64,000 nucleotides of DNA from Sphingomonas beigongshangi (GTDB lineage: Bacteria; Pseudomonadota; Alphaproteobacteria; Sphingomonadales; Sphingomonadaceae): the NCBI RefSeq assembly GCF_016820445.1, contig NZ_JADHDT010000001.1, positions 186,001-250,000 on the forward strand, in the 5' to 3' direction. The notes beneath the pieces were generated by a model. That model was given only the letters and a program-made list of their open reading frames with translations, did no database searches and was not told the DNA's origin. Shown in pieces: positions 28,944 through 52,380 of the stretch (position 1 is its first letter; each line of letters starts with the position of its first letter). The translations under genes were made by a program, and so were the position numbers.

Positions 28944-29050
28944 TTCGTCATCCCGGCGCACGCCGGGATCCATGGATGCGATATGGTCGCAGTCTCGCAC
29001 GAAACCGGCGTTCCGCAACCATGGGTCCCGGCGTTCGTCGGGATGACGAA
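28944..29050. repeat. Palindromic doublet B1 (CCCGGCG type)
   Basis: Left element: CGTCA then ATCCCGGCG-CA-CGCCGGGAT then CCA. The right element is its inverted relative (GGGTCCCGGCG...CGGGATGACG). The outer ends TTCGTCATCC and GGATGACGAA are exact reverse complements. Repeated at 29281-29390 and 29576-29685. Confidence 0.85.
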
Positions 29051-29088
29051 GGGGTCGGGCGTTAGGGAATGGCAGGTTCGCCCCGTCA

Positions 29089-29189
29089 CCGTCATTCCCG
29101 CGAAGGCGGGAATCCAGACACGATGCCGTCGCGCTACCAGCCGGCACAGTCGAGGTTCTGGATTCCCGCCTTCGCGGAAATGACGAAGG
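29089..29189. repeat. Palindromic doublet C1 (TTCCCGC type)
   Basis: CGTCA-TTCCCGC-GAAG-GCGGGAA-TCCAG faces an inverted copy CTGGATTCCCGCC...AATGACG, with about 45 bp between. The flanks CGTCA and TCCA are the same as in B1 but the stem differs. A second copy lies at 29421-29527. Confidence 0.85.
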
Positions 29190-29280
29190 CGGCCGACGCG
29201 GCCGATACCGCCTAATAATGCTCCTCATCCGTTTCCCCGTTCCGTGCAGGCGGTTCCCCCTTCCGCGCATCCGTTTGCTC

Positions 29281-29390
29281 CTTCGTCATCCCGGCGCACG
29301 CCGGGATCCACGGATGCGATGGGGCCGTAGGATCGCACGCAACCGGCGTTTCGCAACCATGGGTCCCGGCGTGCGCCGGGACGACGAAGG
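29281..29390. repeat. Palindromic doublet B2
   Basis: Second copy of the CCCGGCG-type doublet, in unit 2 of the array. The left hairpin matches B1 (CGTCATCCCGGCGCACGCCG...). The right one reads GGTCCCGGCGTGCGCCGGGA, more symmetrical than in B1. Confidence 0.85.
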
Positions 29391-29420
29391 GGGGCAAATG
29401 GGGCATGGCAGGTTCGCCCC

Positions 29421-29527
29421 GTCACCGTCATTCCCGCGCAGACGGGAATCCAGACACGCCGCCGTCGCGCTTTCAGCCGGATCGCCCGAGGTCATGGATT
29501 CCCGCCTTCGCGGGAATGACGAAGGCG
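29421..29527. repeat. Palindromic doublet C2
   Basis: Second copy of the TTCCCGC-type doublet, in unit 2. The left hairpin (TTCCCGCGCAGACGGGAA) carries a stem mismatch; the right one (ATTCCCGCCTTCGCGGGAAT) is perfect. The middle spacer has diverged most from C1. Confidence 0.8.
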
Positions 29528-29575
29528 GCCGACGCGGCCGATACCGCCTGAATCATGTTTTTCATCCGTTTCCCC

Positions 29576-29685
29576 CTTCGTCATCCCGGCGCATGCCGGG
29601 ATCCACGGATGCGTTGGGGTCGCAGGATCGCACGAAACCGGCGTTTCGCAACCATGGGTCCCGGCGTTCGCCGGGACGACGAAGG
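29576..29685. repeat. Palindromic doublet B3
   Basis: Third copy of the CCCGGCG-type doublet, in the truncated unit 3. The left loop is ATG-like (GGCGCATGCC) instead of CA within GGCGCACGCC. Downstream similarity to units 1 and 2 stops at about 29690. Confidence 0.85.
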
Positions 29686-47089: not shown

Positions 47090-47185
47090 CCCGTCATTCC
47101 CGCGCGGGCGGGAATGCGGAAACGCTGACGGTGGTGCTCGAACCGACGACCTGCGCGTCCGGATCCCCGCCTGCGCGGGGATGAC
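47090..47185. repeat. Palindromic doublet D (CGTCATTCCCGC type)
   Basis: Left hairpin CGTCATTCCCGCGCGGGCGG-GAATG and right hairpin ATCCCCGCCTGCGCGGGGAT-GAC in opposite orientation, between the glycosylasparaginase gene and atpC. It is in the same family as B and C of the tandem array. The left stem is TTCCCGC and the right is ATCCCCGC, so the two arms have different stems. Confidence 0.75.
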
Positions 47186-47257
47186 CGATACACGCCGCCT
47201 CCGCCGCTCAGCATCGGATATGAAGGTCCTGCCTCACAGGACCGGCGCCGGCCCGCC

Positions 47258-47509
47258 TTACCCCGCGTGTTCGGCGAGGACGGTCAGCCCCTTGGCGTTG
47301 ACCTCGGCGAAGCCGCCCTGGATCGGCACGATCTCGGGCTGCGCGCCCGCGCTGCGGTAGATCGACAGCGCGCCGTCGCGGATCGTCGACATGAAGGGGG
47401 CATGCCCCTCCAGCACGCCGAAATCGCCCTCGGTGCCGGGGACCACGACCATGTGGACCTCCTCGGAGCGGATCAGCTTTTCAGGCGTGACGAGTTCGAA
47501 GTGGAGCAT
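47258..47509 (-). CDS. atpC: F1 ATP synthase epsilon subunit (short form)
   Basis: An 83-aa epsilon subunit: [40 protein letters not shown] and [21 protein letters not shown] make up the N-terminal beta-sandwich. Most bacterial epsilons are about 130-140 aa and end with two helices that inhibit ATP hydrolysis; those helices are missing here. Short epsilons are known in some alphaproteobacteria, which have a separate inhibitor. ATG 47509 has only a weak site, TGAGA. It is the last gene of the atp operon, 187 bp after atpD. Confidence 0.95.
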
Positions 47510-47523
47510 TGTCTCAGGTCCTG

Positions 47524-47688
47524 ACACCCCTCTCCCCTTGTGGGAGAGGAAGGGGCCCATCGCGGCGGCGATGGGAGGGTGAGGGGTGCGCGCCGCAAAG
47601 GCTGGCGCGGCGCTTCCCCCTCATCCAACCTCCGCCAGGCAGCATGGCTGCCAGGCTTCGGTATCCTTCTCCCACAAGGGGAGAAGGC
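47524..47688. repeat. Palindromic elements E in the atpD-atpC gap
   Basis: CCCTCTCCCCTTGTGGGAGA (47527-47546) faces CTTCTCCCACAAGGGGAGAAG (47666-47686) in inverted order. Between them are a CCCATCGC-CGCGATGGG palindrome (47556-47575) and a CAGGCAGCATGGCTGCCAGG-like pair. The gap is nearly filled by inverted repeats. The CTCCCACAAGGGGAG motif is frequent in proteobacterial intergenic repeats. Confidence 0.85.
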
Positions 47689-47696
47689 GATACGGC

Positions 47697-49184
<1,488 letters not shown>

Positions 49185-49187
49185 CTA

Positions 49188-49256
49188 GTTCCCCGGCGAA
49201 GGCCGGGGTCCAGCATGGGGACCTGCGTAACTGGGCCCCGGCCTTCGCCGGGGAAC
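49188..49256. repeat. Palindromic doublet F in the atpG-atpD gap
   Basis: Left 49188-49212, GTTCCCCGGCGAAGGCCGG followed by GGTCCA; right 49232-49256 is its reverse complement with one mismatch. Spacing is 19 bp. Each half alone also folds (CCCCGGC-GAAG-GCCGGGG). It fills most of the 96-bp gap. Confidence 0.9.
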
Positions 49257-49268
49257 AACGTCTTTGAC

Positions 49269-50144
49269 TTACAGCGCCTCGGCGCCCGAGATGATTTCGA
49301 CCAGCTCCGTCGTGATCGCGGCCTGGCGGGTGCGGTTGTACTGGATCGACAGGCGGTTGATCATGTCGCCGGCGTTGCGCGTGGCATTGTCCATCGCGTT
49401 CATGCGGCTGCCCTGTTCCGACGCCGCATTCTCCTGCAGCGCGCGGAAGATCTGCACCGCGATGTTGCGCGGCAGCAGGTCGGCCAGGATGTCCTCCTCG
49501 CTCGGCTCATACTCGACCACCGCGTCCGCGCCGCTTTTGGGCGCGCGGTCGGTGGCGAGCGGCACCGGGATCAGCTGGCGGCCGGTCGGCTCCTGCACCA
49601 GCGCCGAGACGAACTTGGAGAAGAAGAGGTGGGCGACGTCGAACTCGCCGCGCGTGAAGCGCGCGACCAGATCGTCGGCCACGACGCGCGCGTCCTCGAA
49701 CGACACGGTCTTGATATGGCCCATCTCCTGGTCCGCCAGGATCGCATTCGGATAGAAGCGCTTGAGCACCCGGCCCTTCTTGCCGACCAGGTAGAATTTC
49801 ACCGTCTTGCCCTGCGCGATCAGCTCCTCGGCCTTGCGGCGCGCCGCGCGGACGATGTTGCTGTTGAACGCGCCCGCGAGGCCGCGCTCGCTGGTCGCGA
49901 CGACGAGCAGCTGCACCTGATCCTTGCCGGTGCCGGCGAGCAGCGGCGAAGCGCCGACGCCGCCGACGCGGCTCGCCAGGCTGGCCATCACCGCCTCGAG
50001 CCGCTCGGCATAGGGGCGGCCGTTCTGCGCCGCTTCCTGCGCACGGCGCAGCTTGGCGGCGGCGACCATCTTCATCGCCTTGGTGATCTTCTGCGTCGAC
50101 TTCACCGAGCCGATGCGAAGCTTGAGGGCCTTCAAACTTGCCAT
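49269..50144 (-). CDS. atpG: F1 ATP synthase gamma subunit
   Basis: Rotor stalk subunit; 291 aa, full length. The N-terminal helix [20 protein letters not shown] and the C-terminal helix [20 protein letters not shown] form the coiled coil inside the alpha/beta ring; the central Rossmann-like part includes [16 protein letters not shown]. The order atpA-atpG-atpD is standard. It lies 147 bp downstream of atpA; that gap contains palindromic doublet G. Confidence 0.98.
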
Positions 50145-50169
50145 TCTAGTGCGTCACCATTCCCTCAAA

Positions 50170-50262
50170 CCGTCATGCCGGACTTGTTCCGGCATCCACT
50201 TCGCCACCCGCGCCATGGGCAATTGTGGATCGGTGGACCCCGGAACAAGTCCGGGGTGACGG
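50170..50262. repeat. Palindromic doublet G in the atpA-atpG gap
   Basis: Left 50170-50199: CCGTCA-TGCCGGACTTGTTCCGGCA-TCCAC. Right 50233-50262, read on the other strand: CCGTCA-CCCCGGACTTGTTCCGGGG-TCCAC. The two differ only at two positions in each stem arm, and both differences keep pairing (TG/CA against CC/GG). This is compensatory change within a hairpin. Confidence 0.92.
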
Positions 50263-50291
50263 CGTGTGTGTGTCAGCCGCTATGCGCGTCC

Positions 50292-52380
<2,089 letters not shown>

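Follow-up and report, generated by a model that had tools for sequence, protein, structure and literature searches.

In a co-directional F1 operon of five genes in Sphingomonas beigongshangi, the gap from the stop codon of atpA to the start of atpG contains two hairpins, here called doublet G. What kind of element are they, and do they do anything for the operon in which they sit? We addressed this in a stretch of 64,000 nucleotides containing the operon (the window; contig NZ_JADHDT010000001.1, positions 186,001 to 250,000) and at the corresponding junctions of relatives. Any effect of a REP on its host is hard to test because its copies sit in different places. One operon followed across dozens of species amounts to a set of replicated natural experiments, with the same site and the same kind of fold but a different repeat family; the atp sites also offer clean swaps between near-identical neighbors and negative-control junctions in the same operon. 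Replication, swaps, and built-in controls therefore make REP domestication directly testable by ordinary RNA-seq.

Doublet G is a dimer of CGTC-tagged REPs

Read directly, the left half of doublet G (50171-50198, plus strand) is CGTCA-TGCCGGA-CTTGT-TCCGGCA-TCCA, and the right half (50234-50261, minus strand) is CGTCA-CCCCGGA-CTTGT-TCCGGGG-TCCA: head CGTCA, loop CTTGT, and tail TCCA are common to both, and the stems differ, with both arms changing in step. The CGTC-tagged ends face outward, and the total span is 91 bp. A preliminary description of this DNA had proposed a constant CGTCA...TCCA frame around covarying stems, which direct reading, genome-wide matches, and an arm-shuffle test all bear out. 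Nine further places in the window have an identical or almost identical frame (28946, 29022, 29090, 29159, 29284, 29426, 29495, 29579, and 47092, the last with tail TGCG in place of TCCA). Across the S. beigongshangi genome, the strict pattern CGTCANNCCNGN{4,9}CNGGNNTCCA gave 29 matches on 6 contigs compared to 0 for the reversed pattern, showing that the flanks recur outside the window copies; a looser frame pattern gave 53 matches compared to 5 for its control, and CGTCATN{15,18}ATCCA, with no constraint on the inner stem, gave 45 compared to 0.

For the stems, we fixed only head and tail, left the stem letters free, and counted frames in which ≥6 of the 7 stem positions form Watson-Crick pairs. 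Such pairing was present in 31 of 38 frames from a 464-kb sample of the same genome (the window and 20 further stretches, of which 12 were picked for holding REPs) and in 26 of 39 frames from 80 loci of relatives, and in none of the control frames (6 + 10 + 10 in the S. beigongshangi genome; 2 + 32 + 36 in relatives). When all 42 distinct arm pairs from both sources were taken, 195 of 294 cells were paired, against a partner-shuffle mean of 124.6 (SD, 7.8; maximum, 150); the 25 arm pairs selected for having at least 5 of 7 pairs gave 162 of 175 cells, against 104.3 (SD, 6.2; maximum, 125). RNAalifold, applied to 13 elements, found compensatory changes in three of the seven pairs (for example, one pair is CG in 5, UA in 5, and GC in 3). 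No Rfam family matched the window at the gathering score.

Pair orientation was surveyed for 83 elements found under a loose criterion, those within genes being probably due to chance. Thirty of the 32 neighboring pairs in the own-genome sample are inverted, with the tagged ends outward in 22 and inward in 8; among the outward pairs, 13 have spans of 91-96 bp and 6 have spans of 103-111 bp, with 3 outliers. The 31 outward pairs in the 80 relative loci have more scattered spans (60-101 bp, plus 132 and 250). Eight CGTC REPs form a cluster (28946-29605) that occupies the long divergent hrcA/RNase PH intergenic region and is partly a tandem duplication (unit length, about 300-340 bp). Near the head of the genome's separate Fo operon, CGTC elements also occur in two groups, in a stretch of ~970 nt between a DUF1318 gene and atpB (L166:6747-7129).

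S. wittichii, S. chlorophenolicum, and N. aromaticivorans are presumably sphingomonads. All three are among the hosts of CGTC-tagged REPs, which Di Nocera, De Gregorio, and Rocco described in 2013 as families CGTC-1 and CGTC-2, and which include Neisseria dRS3 and Rickettsia RPE-4/RPE-6 (PMC3733652). According to excerpts of that report, these elements have an unpaired CGTC tag, a stem of 8-9 bp whose positions one and two are almost always AT, a loop of 4-5 nt, and a CCA tail; they are dispersed, mostly as inverted dimers, near 3′ ends of genes, and the superfamily is described as being without a dedicated transposase, no transposase link being reported there (PMC3733652). The elements found here are alike in tag, stem, loop, tail, inverted dimers, position 3′ of genes, and sphingomonad hosts: CGTC is unpaired at one end and CCA forms the tail at the other, stems are 8 bp, loops are 4 or 5, the strict matches are dispersed over 6 contigs, and inverted dimers predominate among neighboring pairs. 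Two elements, L016 and the right half of doublet G, have C-G in place of T-A as the second stem pair. Doublet G is a dimer of CGTC-tagged REPs and, as such, an already known element; the excerpts make no mention of atp operons, of recurrent occupation of a single site, or of swaps with other palindrome families (PMC3733652).

The preliminary description had further likened the hairpins to REP elements with RAYT transposases; on such a reading they would be mobilized by a RAYT, with the doublet as a REPIN-like unit. The dispersed REP-like repeat stands, but the RAYT link is not supported. Short palindromes and inverted pairs are shared with GTAG REPs and REPINs, and the dimer anatomy, with 22 of 32 neighboring pairs tagged outward and mostly of the two span classes above, suits such a unit. 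However, those elements carry a GTAG tag and come with a RAYT (TnpA-REP), whereas the tag here is CGTC, GTAG is absent, and a search of the S. beigongshangi genome for Y1_Tnp (PF01797) at E ≤ 1 found none, although the same search was positive in E. coli and nine other controls. Among 31 genomes (this one included), Y1_Tnp was found in 7 and not in the other 24; matches to the stem-free pattern ranged from 2 to 292 per genome, repeat counts were not associated with Y1_Tnp (median of 15 with it, 44.5 without; p = 0.21), and no Y1 transposase was found in the relative with 292 matches. The more scattered spans in relatives also speak against a REPIN-like unit, as does the lack of a reported transposase link in the excerpts on CGTC REPs (PMC3733652). 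We give RAYT mobilization hardly any credence; recognition of the flanks by some enzyme is possible.

The F1 operon of the window

The operon lies on the minus strand. Its atpA gene (50292-51821) has ATP-synt_ab domains and was assigned to the alpha subunit from operon order and tblastn; atpG (gamma, 49269-50144) was identified by PF00231, atpD (beta, 47697-49172) by domain search, and atpC (epsilon, 47258-47509) by position and tblastn to relatives. F1 contains three copies each of alpha and beta and one copy each of gamma and epsilon. The 147-nt atpA-atpG gap (50145-50291), characterized from its letters and by folding, holds doublet G, and its RNA is predicted to form one long hairpin in which both REPs pair with each other (minimum free energy, −73.2 kcal/mol; z, −4.62). 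The atpD-atpC gap (47510-47696) holds a palindrome pair of another family (CCTTCTCCCC..GGGAGAAGG / CCTCTCCC..GGGGAGAGG), and the atpG-atpD gap (49173-49268) another inverted hairpin pair with CGTC-type stems without the CGTCA head; this last pair is an exception, since most measured relatives are without a hairpin there. A degenerate CGTC REP doublet of 95 bp (47092-47186; left tail TGCG, right head GGTCA) lies between atpC and a convergent asparaginase-family gene. No terminator-like site was found on either strand of 49000-50500. On the plus strand, a 1466-aa open frame (47586-51986) runs antisense through the atp genes and is presumably an artifact of GC-rich codon usage.

Hairpins directly 3′ of atpA and atpD in related sphingomonads

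We examined the best 80 of at least 579 atpG loci, 74 of which are named as sphingomonads (the exceptions are L077, L080, L097, L122, L148, and L150), and scored a hairpin when a gap of 15-230 nt (up to 300 for atpE and nuo) had a stem of ≥7 bp and a folding z of ≤−2. By our own start codon calls, median gaps were 4 nt for atpH-atpA (74 loci), 101.5 nt for atpA-atpG (80 loci), 27 nt for atpG-atpD (80 loci), and 125 nt for atpD-atpC (77 loci); the atpA-atpG values of two loci are faulty, L097 as an artifact (its atpG is 313 bases away from the start of the locus) and L146 as a boundary mis-call (the gap is really 109 nt and has a CGTC-type pair).

A strong hairpin was present in 54 of 66 atpA-atpG gaps and 50 of 64 atpD-atpC gaps, but in only 4 of 51 atpG-atpD and 0 of 13 atpH-atpA gaps. 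Thinning to <90% protein identity, which removes kinship only partly, left 39 loci with a similar distribution (23/31, 22/29, 1/28, and 0/8, respectively). Pairing junctions within loci, the hairpin was only at atpA-atpG in 31 loci and only at atpG-atpD in 2; it was only at atpD-atpC in 29 and only at atpG-atpD in 0. Among loci in which both favored sites were scorable, 5 had a hairpin at neither and 17 at just one, and co-occurrence at the two was not significant (38, 12, 5, and 5 loci; p = 0.13). In related sphingomonads, a strong hairpin of one palindrome family or another usually occupies the sites directly 3′ of atpA and atpD. What is new is the location: the atpA-atpG junction, usually occupied by a hairpin in relatives, had escaped the preliminary description, and we found no published account of the pattern in sphingomonads in the open-access literature.

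As a base rate, hairpins occurred in 7 of 89 co-directional gaps between non-atp genes, counted over these loci and the window, and in 7 of 33 gaps at the operon edges (between an atp gene and its neighbor). Within the S. beigongshangi sample, where 12 of the 20 sampled stretches had been chosen for REPs, a hairpin was present in 24 of the 98 gaps of 41-230 nt between co-directional genes; in the eight stretches not so chosen, the count was 7 of 25. Convergent gaps of this sample had a hairpin in 14 of 26 cases, divergent gaps in 0 of 22. Eight of the 80 loci (L076, L087, L088, L104, L111, L112, L117, and L147) have about 295-640 nt of other sequence and no hairpin at atpA-atpG; the extra sequence is probably an additional gene. 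In 24 loci, more than 230 nt separate atpG and atpD.

At atpA-atpG, a median of 7 nt separates the atpA stop from the first stem, and 15 nt lie between the end of the last stem and the start of atpG; at atpD-atpC, the corresponding margins are 6 and 12 nt, so the hairpin occupies the whole space from the stop codon to the ribosome-binding site. A T-run followed the strongest stem in 0 of 60 atpA-atpG and 1 of 57 atpD-atpC gaps; under a laxer test, a T-run after any stem was seen in 2 of 66 and 5 of 65 gaps, respectively, compared to 25 of 30 stretches behind rplL. A GC stem followed by a T-run being so rare, intrinsic terminators are a disfavored reading of these hairpins.

Different repeat families at one site

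The atpA-atpG hairpins belong to unrelated families: CGTC dimers, CCCTCTCCC..GGGAGAGGG pairs, CTGAGC-TTGTCGAAG types, GTGCTCCCGC types, and others; those at atpD-atpC are mostly of the CCCTCTCCC or CCCCTCCC kind. These two gaps make up ~14 kb of the 967 kb in the loci, yet hold 10 of the 28 CGTC matches under the strict pattern and 61 of the 68 hairpins of the CTCTCCC type, the pattern for the latter having been devised after viewing those gaps. Outside atp gaps, the loci contain 7 hairpins of the CTCTCCC type and the own-genome sample contains 6; the type is therefore dispersed, though not abundant there.

Near-identical neighbors can differ completely in what fills the site. The 500-nt flanks of L084 and L085 are 96.6% and 95.6% identical without gaps, whereas the gap sequences are unrelated: L084 has 100 nt with a CGTC dimer and L085 has 124 nt with a CTCTCCC pair. 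L081 and L080 likewise have different gap contents between flanks that are 94.6% and 92.0% identical, the spot that holds a hairpin in L077 is taken up by 295 nt of other sequence in L076, and the difference between L082 and L079 is an inserted or deleted palindrome beside another one. Mapped onto an 81-row FastTree protein tree, the atpA-atpG labels require at least 37 changes with six states, or at least 26 with four (CGTC, CTCTCCC, TCGAAG, and other); these counts are rough, because labels came from regular expressions that placed the clear CGTC rows L106, L118, and L123 in "other," a class that also includes a few gaps without a hairpin. Such comparisons suggest that scattered repeats may serve as interchangeable RNA parts setting gene output.

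Junctions of atpE, nuoH, and rplL

If copy number is the reason for the hairpins, the gene for the c subunit, atpE, should also have one behind it. This prediction held in the same-family genomes (atpE loci from 30 of 39): a hairpin was present behind atpE in 14 of 26 gaps (21 of 26 by stem of ≥7 bp alone) and in front of it in 0 of 28 (1 of 28 by stem alone). Some of the atpE gaps extend into the neighboring gene. To the eye, the atpE hairpins look unique and fall outside the repeat families. For comparison, junctions flanking nuoH, which belongs to a 1:1 complex, had a hairpin in 5 of 35 testable cases (43 of 84 junctions are <15 nt). Behind rplL, a stem of ≥7 bp lay within 120 nt in 28 of 30 same-family genomes, and in 25 of 30 when z was also applied, compared to 3 of 28 in front; because 25 of the 30 (L351-L380) have a T-run after the stem, these are ordinary terminators or attenuators, and rplL, a second trial of the copy-number idea, speaks neither for it nor against it.

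Other alphaproteobacteria mostly lack the pattern. In 60 of the 93 genomes with atpG, taken roughly by score order and each with a different family code, median gaps were 32 nt at atpA-atpG, 32 nt at atpG-atpD, and 24 nt at atpD-atpC, and hairpins were found in 2 of 45, 3 of 41, and 4 of 31 gaps, respectively. At atpE (30 of 57 genomes), the counts were 2 of 21 behind and 0 of 15 in front, although 8 of these 30 loci, whose genomes gave a further match, may represent second ATPases.

A possible role and its alternatives

On balance, we favor the view that these hairpins may be interchangeable mobile palindromes kept as intercistronic 3′ mRNA stabilizers behind the genes of multi-copy subunits. 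Endonucleolytic cleavage of the atp transcript would come first, and the hairpin would then block 3′-to-5′ exonucleases, giving the segments for alpha, beta, and c a longer life than those for gamma, delta, epsilon, and a; unequal segment lifetimes would help produce the subunits in the enzyme's unequal ratio. The palindromes would arrive as mobile or recombining repeats and be retained at atp sites for structure rather than sequence. We infer that the hairpins are transcribed, protect against exonucleases, affect stoichiometry, and are under selection. More broadly, and only tentatively, sphingomonads may use any mobile palindrome at hand as a plug-in behind the F1Fo alpha and beta genes (and ordinary hairpins behind c); position and fold would be selected and the family repeatedly replaced, turning selfish repeats into domesticated stoichiometry parts. 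The atp hairpins might then explain how the lineage reaches 3:3:1 and c-ring ratios via mRNA architecture.

McCarthy reportedly described in 1991 that mRNA stability is segmental in the atp operon of E. coli, and stem-loops of the selective RNA processing and stabilization (SRPS) type are said, in the titles of papers cited in PMC5927463, to occur at malE-malF and puf. Excerpts of two further reports state that, in an E. coli reporter, a stem-loop raises upstream expression when an RNase E site follows (PMC10667835) and that ATP synthases are named among the SRPS operons of Clostridium (PMC8219983). The systems of Clostridium (PMC8219983) and E. coli (PMC10667835), as represented in these excerpts, share with the atp sites a stem-loop without a U-tract in the 3′ UTR of selected operon genes. 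Judged from sequence alone, the atp gaps hold strong stem-loops that lack poly-U and lie in the 3′ UTR of a selected operon gene; they differ from SRPS operons in that single-site stem-loops come from several unrelated palindrome families.

Several observations count against stabilization. S. beigongshangi itself has a hairpin pair in its atpG-atpD gap, and its atpE gap falls short of a scored hairpin (stem 6; z, −3.6). Other alphaproteobacteria make the same enzyme without such hairpins. Further counterevidence comes from the loci with a hairpin at neither site or just one, the eight with other sequence at atpA-atpG, and the higher base rate in the S. beigongshangi sample.

The main rival holds that atp junctions are a permissive hot spot for selfish repeats: palindromes would insert or recombine into junctions behind stop codons, those of the atp operon being merely tolerant or targeted by repeats, with no host function. 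CGTC dimers also lie in secD-secF, pheS-pheT, and a transhydrogenase gene pair of the S. beigongshangi genome, as this rival would have it, and since secD-secF and pheS-pheT are operons with 1:1 products, the CGTC dimer as such is no stoichiometry device. The single-palindrome difference between L082 and L079, the range from 2 to 292 matches per genome, and the frequency of hairpins at convergent gene ends point the same way. However, tolerance alone fits poorly with the atpG-atpD, atpH-atpA, and pre-atpE gaps, which are almost never occupied, although atpA-atpG, atpG-atpD, and atpD-atpC gaps are similarly short in other alphaproteobacteria; nor does it readily account for a site that stays occupied through family swaps or for atpE hairpins that, by eye, are unlike the repeat families. 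We think a pure hot spot unlikely, though it deserves to be taken seriously.

Two further explanations give the hairpin a different function. As a translational insulator, with no part in mRNA decay, it would part a heavily translated gene (alpha, beta, or c) from a lightly translated one and end their coupling. The same positions would be expected, and a hairpin that takes up the space from the stop codon almost to the following start suits this role, as it does stabilization, from which sequence cannot tell it apart; but gaps of ~30 nt without a hairpin suffice in other alphaproteobacteria, and we regard insulation as rather improbable. As a transcription attenuator, the hairpin would end part of the transcripts and lower downstream genes, for which the strong GC-rich stems and a position preceding one-copy genes can be cited. 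The rarity of T-runs compared to rplL and the lack of a terminator-like site in 49000-50500 argue against this, and an attenuator behind atpA would lower three-copy atpD too; attenuation seems very improbable to us.

Hairpins behind atpA in other proteobacteria

A supply of palindrome repeats at alpha and beta, together with hairpins at c, is a sphingomonad pattern. In a phylum-wide draw (30 loci of 60 genomes, 28 loci outside the genus of S. beigongshangi), the loci outside the genus had a hairpin in 7 of 25 atpA-atpG gaps and in 1 of 21 atpG-atpD gaps; the site behind atpA is therefore used elsewhere too, less often, which fits a function. Seven loci, six of them outside the class of S. beigongshangi and one inside (L321, L325, L326, L328-L330, and L335), have a single hairpin at atpA-atpG, suggesting convergent use of this site in seven other proteobacteria.
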